A stretch of DNA of 64,000 nucleotides from Paramagnetospirillum kuznetsovii (GCF_003284725.1 NZ_PGTO01000005.1:124001-188000); one strand, 5' to 3'. Counted from the first letter of the stretch, positions 26,015 through 33,453 are shown. Notes: generated by a model not told the origin, from the sequence alone. Translations and numbers: made by a program.

Positions 26015-26522
26015 CCCTGGTGACGGGGCGCCCACCATTTGCGCCGAACACACTTCCTCGGGACTGCTTGAGCCGATTGCCGCTGCCCTTCTGGTGGGAT
26101 TGGGCTTTAACCCGCTCTACGCCAACGGGTTTGACCACCATCGTCAGGTCTGGCTCTTACAGTGGCGGATAGCCGGTTGATTTCAGGGCTGAGAAGCGCA
26201 ATTTTTCTGGGGAGAGGCCGGTTTTCTTTCTGGAAAAGGGCTCCCGCCACGGCCTCATACAAAATCCAGCACCCTCTCTGGCCTTCGGGCTGGAGGGGGA
26301 TTCTTATAGAAGATCAGGGAACGGGGGCTCTGAGCGGGTGTGGGAAAGCCTTCCGTGTGGCAATCAGGGGGGCGTCCCCCCTTTCTGACTTCCGATTCGA
26401 ACCCTTGTACCCACATAAGCCATCCTGGTTGGTGGGGGGGCTTTATTTTAGGGCGAACGTTGGCGGAACAGCAAAGCGCAAGGCTGCTATGGCCTTGTTT
26501 CTATTGATAAATCAGCAGTGTC
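26015..26522. other. Non-coding stretch between ccoG and the integrative element
   Basis: About 500 bp, lower GC than the flanks, without a frame that has a ribosome site and plausible codon use. It contains a perfect G6-CGT-C6 hairpin followed by TTT at 26367-26384 (terminator-like). The last 45 bp hold CAAGGC-TGCTATG-GCCTTG (about 26480-26498), which on the minus strand is the original downstream terminator hairpin of the tRNA-Glu gene displaced by the insertion. Confidence 0.45.
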
Positions 26523-26546
26523 GAGAGATTGGCGTCCCCACGGGGA
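26523..26546. repeat. attL core, 24 bp
   Basis: Begins GAGAGATTGGCGTCCCC and ends ACGGGGA. Identical to 33371-33394. The bases from 26530 onward correspond to the encoded CCA, discriminator and acceptor/T-stem end of tRNA-Glu; after 26546 the sequence no longer matches the tRNA, so only a 3' fragment remains on this side. Confidence 0.85.
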
Positions 26547-26642
26547 GACGATGAACCTCAAGATGTAAGCCGCATAACCATTGATTTCCGCCACTCTTGT
26601 AGTGCATTGTGTGGGGGGAATGTGTTGGGGAAGGTGGTTCTT

Positions 26643-27947
26643 ATGTACCTGGAAAAGCGGCGTCGTCGGTGGTACGCAATCCATGAGATACCCGAGGATG
26701 TGCGGGAGATCATCGGCAAGGGCAAGCAATTCTTTCAGAGCCTGGAGACCGAGGACCGGAAGGCAGCCGAGCGCCGGGCAACGCCCCTCAAGGTCCGTTG
26801 GCTGTCCGAGATCGAGCAGGCCCGCAAGGGAAATCGGGAGCACATCGAGCAGGATGCTGCATACTGGCGCAAGGTTCTCCGGGAGACCCCAGAGGAACAG
26901 CGAGAGATCGTCCTTGATCTGATTGCCGACGAGACAACCACCCGCGTTGAACGGGCCATAGAGAGGGCCGGATACGTCGATTACCGGGAAGACGGAGCCA
27001 TGGACCTTCCCGAGGTTGAGGAGGCCCAGCGGTTCCATGCCATCGCCACCGGCAAGCTGGTGCGGCTGGACGAACACCTGGACGAGTGGGTTGCAACCTT
27101 GTCGGGGGAGACCAAGACCAACGACATGAAGCGGTCCACGGTTCTCAAGTTCTCTGAGACCTTCCCTTATGTCTCGGACGTGAAACGCAAGGACATCCAA
27201 CGGTGGGTCAATGCCCTGGTCCAAGGGGAAGGTAAGAGGGTTTCTACCGTTCGCCGCTCCCTGTCTGAGGTGCGGGGATACTGGTCATATCTGGTGTCCA
27301 TCGAAGCAGCCCCAGAGGATGCCCTTCCCTTCGAGAAGCTGACCCTTCCCAAGGAAGGGGTCAAGGAAGCCGTCAAGAACGAGCGCCGGGCCTTTGCTCC
27401 TGAAGATGTGGTGAAACTCCTCAAGGCTGCCGAGGATGACAACGACCACCAGCTTGCCGACCTGATCCGATTGGGGATGTGGACAGGTGCCCGCCTGGAG
27501 GAGCTTTGCTCCCTGAAGCTGTCGAAGGTGGGGGAGGGGTTCTTCGAGGTGGAGGACGCCAAGACCCCCGCCGGGTGGCGCAAGGTGCCGATCCACTCCA
27601 AGCTGGTCCCCACCATGGCCCGGCTGATCGAGGCAAGCGAGAAGGCCAAGGACGAATACGTCATGGCCGGGTTGTCAGAGAACAAGTACGGGGATCGCTC
27701 CAATGCCATCGGCAAGCGGTTTGGTCGCCTGAAGAAGGAGGCCGGGTTCGGTTCTCAGTACGTCTTCCACTCCATCCGCCACACCGTCGCCACCATGTTC
27801 AAGAGCCTTCGTGTTGAGGAGGCCCTGGCTGCTGACATCCTGGGGCATGAGCATGACAAGATCACCTTTGGCCGGTATGCCTCGGATCAGGCCCGGATGG
27901 AGACCTTGGGGCCGATCATGGAGATGCTGAGTTACCCAGAGGTGTGA
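26643..27947 (+). CDS. Tyrosine-type site-specific integrase
   Basis: 434 aa; start ATG at 26643 chosen because GGGGAAGG precedes it and because the protein then begins MYLEKRRRRWYAIHEIPEDV, a normal phage-integrase N terminus. Residues 1-60 resemble the arm-binding region, about 165-260 the core-binding SAM-like domain, and 280-430 the catalytic domain: Arg in MWTGARLEELCSL, the Lys turn after VEDAKTPAGWRKVP, HSIRHTVATMF (HxxR), ILGHEHDKITFGRYA (His and the nucleophile Tyr). Expected to integrate and excise the element at tRNA-Glu. It converges with the next gene, their 3' ends overlapping by 16 bp. Confidence 0.93.
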   Translation: MYLEKRRRRWYAIHEIPEDVREIIGKGKQFFQSLETEDRKAAERRATPLKVRWLSEIEQARKGNREHIEQDAAYWRKVLRETPEEQREIVLDLIADETTTRVERAIERAGYVDYREDGAMDLPEVEEAQRFHAIATGKLVRLDEHLDEWVATLSGETKTNDMKRSTVLKFSETFPYVSDVKRKDIQRWVNALVQGEGKRVSTVRRSLSEVRGYWSYLVSIEAAPEDALPFEKLTLPKEGVKEAVKNERRAFAPEDVVKLLKAAEDDNDHQLADLIRLGMWTGARLEELCSLKLSKVGEGFFEVEDAKTPAGWRKVPIHSKLVPTMARLIEASEKAKDEYVMAGLSENKYGDRSNAIGKRFGRLKKEAGFGSQYVFHSIRHTVATMFKSLRVEEALAADILGHEHDKITFGRYASDQARMETLGPIMEMLSYPEV

Positions 27948-28345
27948 CTTGATGGAAGTGGTTCCCAATCCCCCTTGCGCTTGGGAATGGAGAGCACCAC
28001 CGGGACACTGAACTGAACCCGGCTGATTGTTTTATCGGTGGTCTTTCCCTCCGCATCTGCTCCGACCTTCAAGACTGAAGCCACAGCGACTTTGAAACCA
28101 CCCGTGGCCCCAGCACTTTCTTCGGCATGGGTGGCGAGGTCGAAGTGGACAACCTGTCCAATAATGTGGCGGGGGCCTTTTTCATCATCAATAATGCATA
28201 TCGTCCTATCGTCACCAGCATTGGCTGGAGGTGGTGAAATAACCGCTTGAGCGCCATCAGCACTTATTTCTTTCTTTGCTGACTCAATGCCTCGCACAAT
28301 GTCAACAAGGGTCTGGCTTACAAAATCCTTTAGGCTAACAGTCAT
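27932..28345 (-). CDS. Hypothetical protein, 137 aa (trypco2-like pattern)
   Basis: ATG preceded by GGGGG at 6-nt spacing. The N terminus LKDFVSQTLVDIVRGIESAK, a mid-protein IGQVVHFDLATHAEE and the C-terminal KTISRVQFSVPVVL resemble a family of small bacterial proteins I know only as hypothetical, sometimes labelled with trypsin-co-occurring domains. The pattern is an N-terminal helix plus a beta-sandwich-like rest. The only sizeable minus-strand gene of the element. Cargo or regulatory role unknown. Confidence 0.7.
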   Translation of the reverse strand: MTVSLKDFVSQTLVDIVRGIESAKKEISADGAQAVISPPPANAGDDRTICIIDDEKGPRHIIGQVVHFDLATHAEESAGATGGFKVAVASVLKVGADAEGKTTDKTISRVQFSVPVVLSIPKRKGDWEPLPSSHTSG

Positions 28346-28658
28346 TTTCTGCCCCCTTCAATCCCACTCCTTTAATCCACAACCAAGATAAGTCCAGTCA
28401 CGAAACATCGCAATCATGCCGGGCTTAAAACTGGTGGAAAAATCTCAGACCCCTGCGCTCTGTGCGGCGCGATGGCTTCCCCCTTGGCCGGGGGGTGTCC
28501 TTGTTATCGGTGGGCGTCTGGGTGTCCTCCCTGTCGCTCGCCTGGGGCAGCCCTGGTTTGACCATGCCGCACCCTCGGATGGACCTTGACACCCTGACTC
28601 CATCAGGCGTAACACTTGGCCTCAATGCACGTTGACAGCAGACGTTACGGGTGAGGCC
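28346..28658. other. Divergent promoter region inside the element
   Basis: 313 bp between the minus-strand 137-aa gene and the serine recombinase gene. It holds a C5-TTGGCC-G5 hairpin at about 28477-28496, and TTGACA at 28590 followed 18 nt later by TAACAC, a plausible sigma-70 promoter for the recombinase. A second TTGACA at 28633 sits inside an ACGTT...ACGTT direct repeat (28630-28646). No gene seen. Confidence 0.4.
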
Positions 28659-29345
28659 ATGACCAGCTACGTTGAGTATTACCGGGTGTCCACGGAGAAG
28701 CAGGGGCGCTCTGGCTTGGGGTTGGAGGCGCAGCAAGAGGCTGTGCGTCGGTTCCTCCGGGAAGGAGACACCACCATCAAGCCACCCTTCGTAGAGGTGG
28801 AGAGCGGGAAGAAGACAGACCAGGACCGGCCCCAGCTTGCCGCTGCACTGGACGCCTGCCGGAAGACCGGAGCCTCCCTGTTGATTGCCAAGCTGGACCG
28901 GCTGGCCCGTGACGTGGCCTTCATCGCCACCCTGATGAAGTCGGATGTTCGCTTCGTCGCCTGCGACATGCCCGAGGCTGATCCCTTCCGCCTGCACATT
29001 GAGGCTGCCATTGCCGAAGAAGAGGCCAGGAAGATCAGCCAGCGGACCAAGGCAGCCCTTGCAGCAGCCAAGGCCCGTGGGGTGAAGCTGGGTGGGTATC
29101 GCGGGTACGACCTGACCGAGGAGCAGCGGGGACGGGGCCTGGATCGGTCGGCAGAGGTGCGGGCTGCTGGGGCTGATCAGAGGGCCGCAAGCCTGCTGCC
29201 GGTCATCGCCACCATTCAGGCCGAGGGCATCACCAGCATGGGCGGCATTGCCAAGGCCCTGAACGACCGGGGCATCCCCACTGCTGCCGGTGGGCAGTGG
29301 CATCCCATGAGCGTGTCCAGGCTGTTGAAGAGGCTGGCAGCCTGA
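28659..29345 (+). CDS. Serine recombinase (resolvase/invertase family)
   Basis: 228 aa from the ATG at 28659. Catalytic domain with the nucleophile Ser in [19 protein letters not shown], conserved Asp/Arg in [20 protein letters not shown], and the long E-helix region [20 protein letters not shown]. The C-terminal part (about 155-228) includes [20 protein letters not shown] and VSRLLKRL, a Recombinase-domain-like helix-turn-helix. Close to the small Hin/Tn3-resolvase size. Its presence beside a tyrosine integrase suggests multimer resolution, inversion or a second mobility route. Confidence 0.9.
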
Positions 29346-29482
29346 CCCTGGGACAGCCATTCATGCGACCTCGCATCAGTTGCGAGATTGGATAAGTCGT
29401 TGAAGTCAAACGATCTTTGTCGTTGACCGGGAATCCATGGGGACTCATACAGGCGGGGACATCAACCAGGGGAACCCCAGAC

Positions 29483-29689
29483 ATGACCACCCAGACCACT
29501 GCTGCCGCCACCATCGCCACCCTGATCAGTGAGGCCGGGAATGACCTCCGGGGAGGCATCATGGACACCACCGACCTTCTGACCTGGGCGGGACGTGCCC
29601 TGACTGCTGGTCTGTCGTTCATGTCCCCCGAGGATCAACAGGCCTTCGCTGTCCTGTTGGAGAGCGGGGAGGTTCCATCCTTCGCCTGA
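29483..29689 (+). CDS. Hypothetical small protein, 68 aa
   Basis: ATG at 29483 with AGGGGAA about 9 nt upstream. Mostly helical and acidic: TTAAATIATLISEAGNDLRG ... DLLTWAGRALTAGLSFMSPE ... FAVLLESGEVPSFA. No membrane helix or known family. A terminator follows 24 bp after the stop. Confidence 0.65.
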   Translation: MTTQTTAAATIATLISEAGNDLRGGIMDTTDLLTWAGRALTAGLSFMSPEDQQAFAVLLESGEVPSFA

Positions 29690-29712
29690 TCCCAAGGGGG
29701 TCAATCGGACTG

Positions 29713-29745
29713 AAGCCCCTGCCTTCCATGGTGGGGGCTTTTGCG
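29713..29745 (+). terminator. Rho-independent terminator within the element
   Basis: AAGCCCCTGCC-TTCCAT-GGTGGGGGCTT followed by TTGCGTTT. The 11-bp stem has two mismatches. Ends the serine recombinase/68-aa transcription unit. Confidence 0.75.
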
Positions 29746-29880
29746 TTTCAGGACTCGCTGGAGTCGATTGCAGCCCCGTGGGCTACTGACCCACCAGACA
29801 AACCCCTTCGAGTCTCCAGCACCCCTTAAATCGACTCCCAGGCACATGGGCAATTTGGTTGCACCAGTACATGAAGCAGG

Positions 29881-29950
29881 GTGGTTCCTGTCCGTCTGTG
29901 GCGGGGTGGTGTGGGTTTTACGACCGCCTGCACCACCCCCAAGGAACCAC
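29881..29950. repeat. Nested double inverted repeat (70-bp hairpin)
   Basis: Outer arms GTGGTTCCT (29881-29889) and AGGAACCAC (29942-29950) are perfect complements; inner arms GGGGTGGTG (29903-29911) and CACCACCCC (29931-29939) likewise. The two stems are coaxial with a one-sided internal loop. The outer right arm AGGAACCAC recurs at 30320-30328, immediately before the ATG at 30333. Confidence 0.65.
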
Positions 29951-30332
29951 AACCTTAGTACGTCATTGCCCCGCCTTTATCTGCAACCCTGAATTACGTT
30001 GCACCAGTAAGATAGGGCGAATGATGAAACACCAATGTGTATCTCATGATGATCACATTGGTTCACCTCATGCTTCCCTGATGTTGTCCTTTGGTTGCTT
30101 GGAAGATTCCACCTCAGTGTGACCAGGGTGTCAGTGAGGTGGTGGTACTCCGTACCTCCCCACCCAACAACCAACCATGTTGAACCGATGACATGACCTC
30201 TGCTGGACAGGGTGAACCCCTGTGGCTCCAGAGGATGACCATCGTTCTTCCCCTGCCTTCGTCTGTCACCACCTGTCTCTCTACCTAGTAGGAGGCTGGT
30301 GGTATTTCACCATTTGAATAGGAACCACACCC

Positions 30333-30698
30333 ATGTCCCACATCACCCCTGAACCGACCACCATCATTGACGACCGGAAGAAGCGTGTCGTCCTTGTCCC
30401 CCTCTCGCTGAACCGTGGCTTCGCCAAGGTGGACGAGGAAGACTACCTCGCCATCCGGGAGAAAGGCTTCACTGGTGGCTGGTATCTGAACCTCCAGAAG
30501 ACCGCTGGTTACGTCATGGTCAATGACAAGGCTGCCGGTAACAACAACAAGAAGGTGGCTCGGCTGATCATGAACCCTCCGCCTGGGTACGTCGTTCGTT
30601 ACCACAACAACGACCGGAAAGACCTTCGTCGATGCAACCTTGTCCTTCAGACCCGCAAGGCCCTGAAGGCTGAGAACCAGGGGAAGGCCCATGGCTGA
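30333..30698 (+). CDS. Degenerate HNH-fold protein 1
   Basis: 121 aa. Architecture matches small HNH/AP2-type homing endonucleases: a VPLSLNRGFAKVDEEDYLAI start, WYLNLQKTAGYVMVN, then VARLIMNPPPGYVVRYHNND with KDLRRCNLVLQTRK. In active relatives these read HRLIM..P.G..VDHiNgd..DNRrsNL, so the first His and the Asp-His pair are lost (Ala and Arg-Tyr) while the final NL is kept. Probably a DNA-binding derivative without cleavage activity. The next gene overlaps its stop by 8 bp. Confidence 0.75.
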   Translation: MSHITPEPTTIIDDRKKRVVLVPLSLNRGFAKVDEEDYLAIREKGFTGGWYLNLQKTAGYVMVNDKAAGNNNKKVARLIMNPPPGYVVRYHNNDRKDLRRCNLVLQTRKALKAENQGKAHG

Positions 30699-30999
30699 CG
30701 GTGTCCATGTCTCCGTCCCTGTTCAGGTCAAGGGGCAGTGGAACAGGAAGGCCAAGATCAACCAGGAAGACCTGGATGATCTGCTGTGGGGTGGCTGTGT
30801 CAATCAATGGTTCCTGGGTCATCGGGGGGATAACGTCCTGGCTCATACCCCACATGATCGGGTTGTCCCTGTTGCTTCCCTGATCATGAAGCCCCCGAGG
30901 GGGTATCAGGTTGCCTTCAAGGATGGTGACCCCTTCAACCTGACAAGGGCCAACCTCACCCTGGTTCCCAGCAAGACCAGTGACATTCCGAGAGGTTGA
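30691..30999 (+). CDS. Degenerate HNH-fold protein 2
   Basis: 102 aa, ATG with GGGGAAGG upstream, inside the end of the preceding gene. Same layout as its neighbour: VPVQVKGQWNRKAKINQEDL, WFLGHRGDNVLAH, then VASLIMKPPRGYQVAFKDGD and FNLTRANLTLVPSK. The active-site His positions are Ala/Ser and Phe; only the NL and the LIM.PP.G turn remain. Second of three tandem relatives. Confidence 0.72.
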   Translation: MADGVHVSVPVQVKGQWNRKAKINQEDLDDLLWGGCVNQWFLGHRGDNVLAHTPHDRVVPVASLIMKPPRGYQVAFKDGDPFNLTRANLTLVPSKTSDIPRG

Positions 31000-31005
31000 C
31001 CCTCC

Positions 31006-31389
31006 ATGGTCCAAGCCATTGGCGTTTGTCACCTGCCCATTGCCAATGACGCTGAGACCATCCTTGTTGATGCCTCCACCTTTCCCACCCTGTCCCAGGC
31101 CCGTTGGTATCGGGACAGGTCGGGGAATGGCAGGCCGTACACCATCCTCCCCAAGGAGGACCGGGCTGCCCATGGTGGGGCTTGGTGTCTCTACCTGTGC
31201 CGTCTGCTGACCAGGGCACAGCCCAAGGTCCACATGGTCCAGCACATCAACGGCAATGTCCTCGACTGCCGTCTTTCCAACCTTCGCCTTCTGTCTGCTA
31301 ATGGCCCTGAGAGGCGGTTGGCCGGATACCCCATGAACCCCAAGCGTCCATCCTTGCTGCCCAGCATGGACCTCCTGGCGCTTCCCTGA
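31006..31389 (+). CDS. HNH-fold protein 3, partly conserved active site
   Basis: 127 aa, ATG at 31006 with AGAGG upstream, 6 bp after the previous stop. The C-terminal half reads LCRLLTRAQPKVHMVQHING and NVLDCRLSNLRLLS, retaining the central His and the LDxRxSNLR end of HNH_3-type nucleases; the first His of the usual HRL is Cys. It is the least decayed of the three and may keep DNA nicking or only binding activity. Confidence 0.75.
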   Translation: MVQAIGVCHLPIANDAETILVDASTFPTLSQARWYRDRSGNGRPYTILPKEDRAAHGGAWCLYLCRLLTRAQPKVHMVQHINGNVLDCRLSNLRLLSANGPERRLAGYPMNPKRPSLLPSMDLLALP

Positions 31390-31423
31390 CCCTTGAGGGT
31401 GCCGCCCCCAACAGCCCGTCACG

Positions 31424-31510
31424 TTACTGGTTCATCAGCCAGATTTCTAAGGCCTCGCGGATGAGATCCATCACGAGACGGGCAGCCCGATCCATGCGTT
31501 TGGTGACCAT
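31424..31510 (-). CDS. 28-aa micro-ORF on the minus strand
   Basis: On the minus strand TTGGAGGACCAGATATG gives a GGAGG ribosome site 7 nt from an ATG. The peptide MVTKRMDRAARLVMDLIREA + LEIWLMNQ is a basic amphipathic helix ending in TAA. It is the only minus-strand frame in this 295-bp gap with such a start. It may be a leader or a small regulator; chance cannot be excluded. Confidence 0.4.
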   Translation of the reverse strand: MVTKRMDRAARLVMDLIREALEIWLMNQ

Positions 31511-31529
31511 ATCTGGTCCTCCAATGGGA

Positions 31530-31588
31530 TGGCAGGTTTAAGCCTGCCAGCTCCACTGCGTATCCATCACGCAGCACCACTGAAGTGG
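31530..31588. repeat. Three consecutive perfect hairpins upstream of the amber-interrupted gene
   Basis: TGGCAGG-TTTAAG-CCTGCCA (31530-31549), CTGCGT-ATCCATC-ACGCAG (31556-31574) and CCACT-GA-AGTGG (31577-31588). They lie between the divergent micro-ORF and the plus-strand genes that start at 31685, so they could form operators or a structured 5' leader. Confidence 0.55.
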
Positions 31589-31684
31589 CCTCCTGAGAAG
31601 GATGGTCGGTGCTGGAGGCGGCACTCGCATTCGACCACTTAGCCCACCCGCTTACAACCCACCCCCACACACGGAACCATACCC

Positions 31685-32575
31685 ATGCCTGAACTCACCA
31701 TCACTGATGGGGCGTCTTCGTTCGTCCCTGAACAGTCCCCCCAGTCCTTCCAGATCAACCCTGCTCCTGCCCCGTCCACCACGGGGACCATCACCCAGGC
31801 CCGCACTTCCTCCGGTTCGCCGGTCATGGGTGGCGGCTTGAATGCCAACTCCGTCATCAACATCGGTGGCGTTGAGACCAGCATCAAAGCCGCCATGGCT
31901 GCCGGTTACGTCCAGCAGAACCCGGATGGTACCTTCGCCGTGGTGTCGCAGGAGGCCAGAACCCAGGCCCAGCAGCAGCGACAGCAGGCCCGTGCCCAGG
32001 CTGAAGCTGAAGCCTTGGGGATGGATGGGTAGGAGGAAGGTCTTGACCAATCCTCTGAAGCCACCATCACCACCTTCGCCAACCATGTCAGCCCCAGCAC
32101 CTCCATTGGTGCCGTCATGGACATCGCCAACGGCCAGCCGATCCGGGACAGTCACATCACCCAGGCCGCTTCCCAGATGGGCAAGGAGCCTGCCCAGGTC
32201 CGCGCCATGGTGGATCAGGTCAAGGGTGCCTTCGAGACCCAGGCCCGTTCCGTGGTGGACCGTGCCGGTCTCCATGCGGATGACGTGTTCGCTTGGGCAT
32301 CCCAGGATCAGAAGGGCCGCGACCTGATGAAGCAGGCCATCCATGATCAGGCCATCAAGCGGACCACTTCGGGTTACCAGAAGGTGGCCCAGGCGTACCT
32401 GGAGAACCTGGACACCATCAACCCGGATGCCCTGCTGAATGCCCAGCTTGGCGAGGGGCTGAAAGTGAAGCGGTCCAGCAATGGCAAGATCGTCCTGGAG
32501 ACCCCCAAGGGTGAACTGGAATACCGCTCTGCCATCAAGGCTGGCCTGATCAAGATCAGCAAGGCCCGACGCTGA
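31685..32575 (+). pseudogene. Gene interrupted by an in-frame TAG at 32030
   Basis: The ATG at 31685 opens 115 codons ending EALGMDG, then TAG (32030-32032). The same frame continues without further stops as EEGLDQSSEATITTFANHVS ... to the ATG at 32117 and on to a TGA at 32573-32575, which overlaps the next ATG. Downstream residues (VRAMVDQVKGAFETQARSVV, HADDVFAWASQDQKGRDLMK) keep normal composition. No ribosome site precedes the ATG at 32117. The whole would be a 296-codon, Gln-rich, helical protein reminiscent of phage scaffold or minor structural proteins, though no family is recognised. Either a nonsense mutation or amber read-through. Confidence 0.65.
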
Positions 32576-32940
32576 TGGCTGAATACGTCACCAACGGCAA
32601 CTTGCGGACCAGGGTCGATGACATCGACGAACCCATTGAAGGCTTCAAGAAGAAGACCTGGGTTCCCCCTGCTGAGTGGGGGCCGTTCAAGATCATGAGT
32701 GAAGGCATGATCCGCCCTCGCGCCCCCCGTCCCACTGGAGATTTACGCTTTCTCTCAGGGGTGGGTGGTGGTGGGGAGGGTCTTAACCTCCTGTCTGTCC
32801 CTTACGAACGCCTCTACTTCGAGAAGGTGGACACCTGGGTGTCTCGCCTGATCCGCCCGGTTCATGGTTACGACACCGTGCCCCGGCAACCCGACTTCAA
32901 CGACGACGACCTTTGTCCCGTCCCTGTCTCCCCTTACTGA
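32575..32940 (+). CDS. Hypothetical protein, 121 aa
   Basis: Start ATG overlaps the previous stop (TGATG). Sequence MAEYVTNGNLRTRVDDIDEP ... FKKKTWVPPAEWGPFKIMSE ... VDTWVSRLIRPVHGYDTVPR. Aromatic and Pro-rich, soluble, no known family. Coupling to the interrupted gene suggests a common function. Confidence 0.65.
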   Translation: MAEYVTNGNLRTRVDDIDEPIEGFKKKTWVPPAEWGPFKIMSEGMIRPRAPRPTGDLRFLSGVGGGGEGLNLLSVPYERLYFEKVDTWVSRLIRPVHGYDTVPRQPDFNDDDLCPVPVSPY

Positions 32941-32951
32941 GGATCACCCCC

Positions 32952-33158
32952 ATGAATGCTTCCGTTGAGACCGTCACCATCACTTGCCCCGGTGGCGGCA
33001 CCATCACCCTGACCAAGCACCAGGATCAGGATGTGTCTTTCGTCGATGCCGGTGGCACCCGCCAGGGCAACGCCACCGAGGCCATGATCAAGCTGTTCGC
33101 CACCATCAAGGCGAATGGTTCTGGTACTGCCCCGGTCATTGGTCGCGTGGATCACTGA
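32952..33158 (+). CDS. Hypothetical protein, 68 aa
   Basis: ATG at 32952 after GAGGATCACCCCC. Beta-rich sequence MNASVETVTITCPGGGTITL, then FVDAGGTRQGNATEAMIKLF and GTAPVIGRVDH. One Cys in ITCPGGG. No family recognised. Last gene of the element before attR. Confidence 0.6.
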   Translation: MNASVETVTITCPGGGTITLTKHQDQDVSFVDAGGTRQGNATEAMIKLFATIKANGSGTAPVIGRVDH

Positions 33159-33329
33159 TCCCAGGCACATGACCAGGGCAAGCCCCATGCTGACCCGTGA
33201 CCCAACCCGATGCCCCTTGCGAGGGGACGGCAAGGATAATCGCGGGAAGGCATGGGGCAACCCCAGGATCGGCCCCTGGCCTTCGGGTCAAGCGTGTGGG
33301 GGAGCCGTGTGGGGGATCGCAAAAAGCAA

Positions 33330-33352
33330 GGCTGCTACTGCCTTGTTTTCAT
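33330..33352 (-). terminator. Terminator of tRNA-Glu supplied by the element
   Basis: On the minus strand, after the tRNA: AAAACAAGGC-AGTAGCA-GCCTTG followed by CTTTTTGC. The 6-bp stem with a T-run ends the tRNA-Glu transcript. A similar hairpin at the other end of the element (about 26480-26498) is the original chromosomal copy. Confidence 0.6.
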
Positions 33353-33370
33353 TGAGAAATTAGCGATGTT

Positions 33371-33394
33371 GAGAGATTGGCGTCCCCACGGGGA
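33371..33394. repeat. attR core, 24 bp
   Basis: Identical to 26523-26546 and overlapping the 3' end (T-stem, acceptor, encoded CCA) of the intact tRNA-Glu gene. Crossover within this block regenerates a complete tRNA. Confidence 0.85.
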
Positions 33395-33453
33395 TTCGAA
33401 CCCCGGTTTACGCCGTGAGAGGGCGTCGTCCTAGGCCTCTAGACGATGGGGAC
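33378..33453 (-). tRNA. tRNA-Glu (anticodon CTC), CCA encoded
   Basis: Read on the minus strand: acceptor GTCCCCA ... TGGGGAC, discriminator G, then encoded CCA. D-arm TCGTCTAGAGGCCTAGGACG, anticodon stem ACGCC / GGCGT with loop CTCTCAC giving CTC at 33417-33419, T-arm CCGGGGTTCGAATCCCCG. Closely resembles other bacterial tRNA-Glu. Serves as integration site of the element on its left. Confidence 0.95.

Follow-up and report, generated by a model that had tools for sequence, protein, structure and literature searches.

A compact element integrated at tRNA-Glu in Paramagnetospirillum kuznetsovii, member of a recurring alphaproteobacterial family and candidate satellite of T7-like podoviruses

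The segment at positions 26523–33394 of the window (the whole 64 000-nucleotide stretch of DNA that was analysed) raises the question of what kind of mobile element carries little more than two recombinases and a set of small genes, and of how it might move between cells. The first-pass annotation had proposed a satellite-type or new minimal mobile element. On the evidence below we regard it as a tRNA-targeted integrative element of a recurring alphaproteobacterial family, and we lean towards a satellite of T7-like podoviruses as its most likely nature. A satellite mechanism gives the best fit, a reading drawn mainly from the larger relatives; the window copy is a reduced, minimal member that lacks the ejection proteins and, as the reading frame that we call ‘big’ is interrupted by a stop codon, may also be partly inactive.

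The ends and the recombination module are made up as follows.

33378–33453, minus strand: intact tRNA-Glu(CTC), the integration target (ARAGORN, Rfam RF00005)
33371–33394: att copy GAGAGATTGGCGTCCCCACGGGGA overlapping the 3' end of tRNA-Glu (24 bp exact repeat)
26523–26546: distal att copy GAGAGATTGGCGTCCCCACGGGGA, the displaced tRNA 3' end (24 bp exact repeat)
26458–26522: stretch outside the left att, 80% like its counterpart inside the right end, 33306–33370 (94 nt repeat D1)
33321–33350, minus strand: candidate intrinsic-terminator-like structure, a stem-loop with a T run after it, immediately downstream of the tRNA and borne by the element (read from the sequence)
26643–27947, plus strand: tyrosine integrase with a DUF6538 N-terminus (PF00589, E = 8e-18; PF20172, E = 1e-10)
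28659–29345, plus strand: small serine recombinase of the resolvase/invertase type (PF00239, E = 3e-26)
26609–26629, plus strand: candidate left integrase arm-type site, GTGTGGGGGGAATGTGTTGGG (at position 87 of the element; its equivalents in the related elements G015a and G197 are at position 82)
33294–33314, plus strand: candidate right integrase arm-type site, GTGTGGGGGAGCCGTGTGGGG (100 bp from the right end; 100–101 bp in G015a and G197)

The 24 bp of GAGAGATTGGCGTCCCCACGGGGA comprise the 3' end of tRNA-Glu and its flank, and they set the bounds of the element at 26523–33394 (6.9 kb). An exact 24-base repeat anchored in the 3' end of a tRNA, with an intact integrase adjoining, excludes a chance origin in practice, and site-specific integration at tRNA-Glu is well supported. 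Identical ends, an intact tRNA and an adjacent tyrosine integrase had all been noted at first pass, and each was borne out here: the tRNA call and the exact repeat at both positions agree, the att repeat completes the tRNA and the catalytic residues of the integrase are intact (Arg284, Lys307, His376, Arg379, His402 and Tyr412 are invariant in the alignment). The integrase has a dN/dS of 0.26 against that of G015a; the serine recombinase, with an invariant catalytic Ser11 in its alignment, has a dN/dS of 0.125 against that of the relative G188. Three elements with closely related integrases (the window element, G015a and G197) have matching direct repeats 82–87 bp and 100–101 bp inside their two ends, which is as expected for arm sites, and we propose the paired repeats as candidates for that role.

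The G+C content of the element (59.5%) is lower than that of its flanks (63.9% and 65.9%). The tRNA-Glu/M67/RluD synteny is common to nearly all of 16 other genomes in the genus, and relatives have the homologous tRNA-Glu neighbourhood without the element; no full-length copy was found in 40 related genomes, and the region is accordingly not core DNA, in line with its first description as an insertion. The repeat runs past the 24 bp core for another 65 nt, giving 94 nt at 80% identity. Its outer copy at 26458–26522 is either the old region downstream of the tRNA or a remaining end of a related element that had inserted before. Among the relatives the sequence downstream of tRNA-Glu varies between species, with nothing similar to 26458–26522 there, so that the second of these readings may hold for the outer left copy. 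Tandem accretion is suggested to happen in the family by G009, which has a copy of an AlpA-like gene beyond its left att, and by G015, which has a second att-bounded element. The terminator-like stem-loop lies in the inner right copy, which fits an element that restores the 3' end of the tRNA together with the signal downstream of it. To the left of the element, a 44 nt stretch (26080–26123) recurs at 84–91% in several genomes of the genus. At the same tRNA-Glu site in G005, a different species, a serine recombinase (L033, 532–1203; 36% identical) is found downstream of the tRNA, from which tRNA-Glu looks like an integration hotspot.

The remainder of the element is occupied by small genes and one conserved, mostly non-coding region.

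27932–28345, minus strand: probable cargo gene with a weak Trypco2-like domain (PF19631, E = 0.002, below the curated cut-off)
29483–29689, plus strand: 68-residue conserved protein (90% identical in G188, dN/dS 0.18)
29751–30374, plus strand: largely non-coding stretch with a conserved counterpart in G188 (76% identical over 635 bp)
30333–30698, plus strand: HNH_3-like protein 1, hnh1 (PF13392, E = 2e-4, below the cut-off; homologues in other elements, family F0)
30691–30999, plus strand: HNH_3-like protein 2, hnh2, the HNH histidine being absent by inspection (PF13392, E = 9e-4)
31006–31389, plus strand: HNH_3-like protein 3 (PF13392, E = 2e-6, above the cut-off)
31685–32575, plus strand: ‘big’, a family-specific protein of 296 codons with an in-frame TAG (profile and alignment to homologues)
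32575–32940, plus strand: p121, a small protein after ‘big’ (family F16; it has a homologue in G188, and other relatives have genes at a similar position)
32952–33158, plus strand: p68, a small protein closing the operon (homologues in G188 and G001)

The 3' operon ‘big’–p121–p68 (31685–33158) recurs in relatives. The genes are coupled, as had been remarked: hnh1 and hnh2 overlap by 8 bp and ‘big’ and p121 by 1 bp. The two recombinases and the HNH-fold proteins of the first-pass annotation were likewise recovered (PF00239, PF00589 and PF13392), as was the lack of capsid, packaging and conjugation genes (Pfam/PHROG scans and queries with the resident prophage). Its statement that nothing else is recognisable needs amending, for the window element by the weak Trypco2 match of the minus-strand gene and for the family by T7-like internal virion proteins. 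A motif scan of 29751–30374 found the direct repeat TTGCACCAGTA twice, at 29859 and 29999; the counterparts of both copies in G188 read TTGCACCAATA, indicating that the copies change together. A regulatory, operator or origin role is possible for this region.

About 13 relatives of roughly 7–15 kb were found, most with ends mapped in tRNA genes. Those with mapped ends are the following.

G127: tRNA-Pro, 14.8 kb
G009a: tRNA-Gly, 7.9 kb
G256: tRNA-Ser, 7.2 kb
G015a and G015b: tRNA-Ser, 8.2 and 6.6 kb
G204: tRNA-Phe, 12.9 kb
G197: tRNA-Ser, 13.1 kb
G188: tRNA-Gly, 10.4 kb
G146b: tRNA-Gly fragment, 12.5 kb

Membership of the family is defined by shared modules and by no single gene: G015, G197 and G204 are linked through the integrase, the resolvase or internal virion proteins and not through ‘big’, and the G002 and G212 elements were counted without mapped ends. 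With the short G001 copy left out, an integrase is found in 13 of 13 elements and a resolvase in 12 of 13, some of them fragmentary; the relatives examined adjoin recombinase genes, most beside tRNA genes. The integrase and resolvase trees disagree, which points to exchange of modules. Of 317 genomes of the order, 10 (the genome of the window among them) have a match to the ‘big’ profile, as does one further genome in a sample of 385 from the class. The same gene set, which the first reading had suggested seeking beside other tRNA-Glu genes, recurs in other elements integrated in tRNA genes, and the recurrence of the family in Rhodospirillaceae-like and other alphaproteobacteria is well supported. 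An IMG/VR predicted provirus record (L134, 1–15404) with an integrase, a resolvase, an HNH-like protein, a ‘big’ homologue and tRNA-Ala is a related element from outside the genomes searched and was reached through its serine recombinase. Related elements also contain a TIR-domain protein and a weakly AbiJ-NTD4-like protein (L092, 14482–15597 and 4946–5701); these TIR and AbiJ-type genes, in two relatives, are possibly anti-phage, defence-like cargo. No published account of such elements, or of satellites with internal virion proteins, was found in the literature searched, the coverage of which is incomplete, and the family is apparently undescribed so far.

The larger relatives provide the link to T7-like phages. 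A protein of ∼1250–1285 residues, taken as internal virion protein D, is encoded in each of G146a, G146b, G197 and G204; those of G146a and G204 match phrog_6651 (internal virion protein; E = 3e-42 and 2e-54), and the G146a protein shows ∼22–30% identity to the protein D found in podoviruses of Pelagibacter and Roseobacter. Protein B is also present in G197 and G204, the G204 copy matching phrog_805 with E = 1e-23. G146a, G146b, G127 and, in broken form, G188 encode the protein C family, for which a profile comparison gives a match (probability 98%) to the gene that lies immediately upstream of the one for protein D in Roseobacter phage CRP-125 (Autographiviridae). An 863-residue protein of L134 was not counted as protein C, the likeness being a short N-terminal motif (E = 0.02). 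In several elements ejection proteins B, C or D adjoin the window-type 3' operon or replace it. The gene order in G146a is HNH–‘big’–small proteins–C–D, and the window operon has the look of this module minus C and D; G146a ends at a contig end and its missing genes are only partly established.

These genes could also have been left behind by deletion of temperate T7-like podoviruses, the elements being prophage remnants that keep an integration module and a few virion genes. The T7-like character of the internal virion proteins is compatible with this, and decay is visible in G188 (integrase, ‘big’ and protein C broken), in the TAG of the window ‘big’ and in the short G001 copy. What the elements have kept makes such an origin unlikely: internal virion genes alone are retained, never capsid, portal or terminase, and the gene order is similar at different tRNA genes. 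Where long genes are intact they show purifying selection, dN/dS between G197 and G204 being 0.18 for protein D and 0.23 for protein B, which argues against simple decay. When the elements were searched in six frames with the TerL, portal, capsid and tail proteins that the resident prophage encodes, none gave a match; this is a single query set that would miss very divergent versions. Nor did a complete phage with the gene set appear in phage records, IMG/VR, plasmids and ∼700 genomes searched with ‘big’, so the helper-independent prophage that might have explained the region away was not encountered.

We consider it similarly improbable that the elements are genomic islands with their own integration module, moved passively (by transduction or transformation) or by conjugation, in which the phage and defence-like genes would be cargo. 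The window element, in which ejection genes are absent and no phage virion gene can be recognised, could be described in this way, as could the relatives that bear TIR and AbiJ-like genes and the several elements without any ejection protein. The recurrence of ejection proteins in at least five distinct elements is, however, unexpected for random cargo, and the scans made turned up no relaxase; the Pfam hits of the window element's genes include neither a relaxase nor a conjugation gene. The satellite proposal of the first-pass annotation stands in so far as the gene set recurs in tRNA elements that lack capsid, portal and terminase genes, several of them with T7-like internal virion proteins, and is qualified by the damage to the ‘big’ frame of the window copy.

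The stop codon in ‘big’ is a TAG at 32030–32032, at which the homologues in L015 and L016 are uninterrupted. A two-gene reading (31685–32032 and 32117–32575) was dropped for a single 296-codon frame interrupted by the TAG. That the TAG is read through, so that a longer product is made under regulation, is compatible with the satellite reading as one form of it and does not compete with it. Such read-through would suit the in-frame alignment of ‘big’ to its homologues past the stop and the in-frame TAG elsewhere in the ‘big’ of G188, but is very hard to credit given that the TAG sits in an insertion missing from both stop-free homologues and that the ‘big’ of G188 has clearly suffered deletion too.

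Of 17 T7-like virion proteins compared by profile, it is the scaffolding protein of CRP-125 that matches ‘big’ best. In a comparison with 15 scaffolding proteins, the product of T7 gene 9 among them, the match covers 86 columns with E = 2e-4 and a probability of 49%, and rests largely on one member, the probability being 5% without G212. It outscores 99 of 99 unrelated decoys, and block-shuffled and reversed controls (against the first ten scaffolding proteins) score below it. An AlphaFold model of ‘big’ (mean pLDDT 69) gave no significant Foldseek match in BFVD and the PDB, and its own profile found no homologues in phage records, plasmids or IMG/VR. The helical part of ‘big’ weakly resembles a T7-like scaffolding protein, which we treat as a lead; a scaffold-like ‘big’ could redirect helper capsid assembly.

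A candidate helper is present in the same genome. Contig C4 has, at ∼29.6–69 kb (L109–L111), an apparently complete podovirus-type prophage with a T7-like module; its head and tail genes are T7-like, and it encodes internal virion proteins as well as TerL, a portal and a major head protein. A comparison of shared DNA found no convincing packaging signal common to this prophage and the element, the one weak match being protein-coding DNA. A clearly related portal gene (E < 1e-40) occurs in three of 13 element-bearing genomes versus 18 of 304 others, a weakly raised frequency that was tallied by hand; weaker 25–29% matches swamp the signal, making the test uninformative short of E = 1e-40. A match to the prophage portal at 25–29% identity over ∼480 residues is seen in roughly half of the order's genomes. 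Scans of IMG/VR with the integrase and with internal virion protein D gave no relatives; the serine recombinase was rejected as a marker there, being too common to be diagnostic.

As several relatives carry ejection proteins but no capsid genes, the elements probably travel inside T7-like phage particles. On helper infection or prophage induction the element would excise through Int, and its DNA (∼7 kb, as a monomer or concatemer) would be packaged by the helper. Element-encoded proteins that interact with the virion would modify the particle: the ejection proteins in the larger members and perhaps a scaffold-like protein in those with ‘big’. In the next cell Int would re-insert the DNA at a tRNA, and the serine recombinase may resolve multimers. 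More tentatively, the elements may form a new family of T7-like podovirus satellites that replace the DNA-ejection proteins of the helper, and possibly also its scaffold, with counterparts of their own; helper-built particles would in this way be tailored to deliver the satellite genome. If this is true, T7-like podoviruses of alphaproteobacteria have satellites aimed at the DNA-ejection machinery and not only at capsid size or packaging, which would open a new approach to how ejection proteins are selected as virions assemble. It would also provide a defined family whose attachment sites, modules and candidate helper prophages make it testable in culture.

Among known satellites, PICI, cf-PICI, P4-like and PLE elements include some that encode proteins remodelling the helper capsid. 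The window element is like them in its size range, its integrase and the absence of a full set of virion genes, but no hallmark gene of theirs was recognised in it (general Pfam/PHROG scans). Tycheposons of marine cyanobacteria likewise use a tyrosine recombinase and occupy tRNA genes, and some show satellite features; their hosts and gene content are unlike those of the window element. No described satellite is known to carry T7-like ejection proteins, and none came up in the literature searched. The phage-inducible chromosomal minimalist islands (PICMI) of the Vibrionaceae integrate by fis and have a core of AlpA and a primase (PMC10803314). They too are very small integrated elements with an integrase, a few small genes and no capsid genes (PMC10803314), whereas the window element sits in tRNA-Glu, has a serine recombinase and HNH-like genes, and has no AlpA or primase recognised by the Pfam/PHROG scans. 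The T7-like podoviruses themselves (Autographiviridae of Pelagibacter and Roseobacter) have the full head, tail and terminase genes, none of which is found in the elements, and share with the relatives homologous internal virion proteins C and D.
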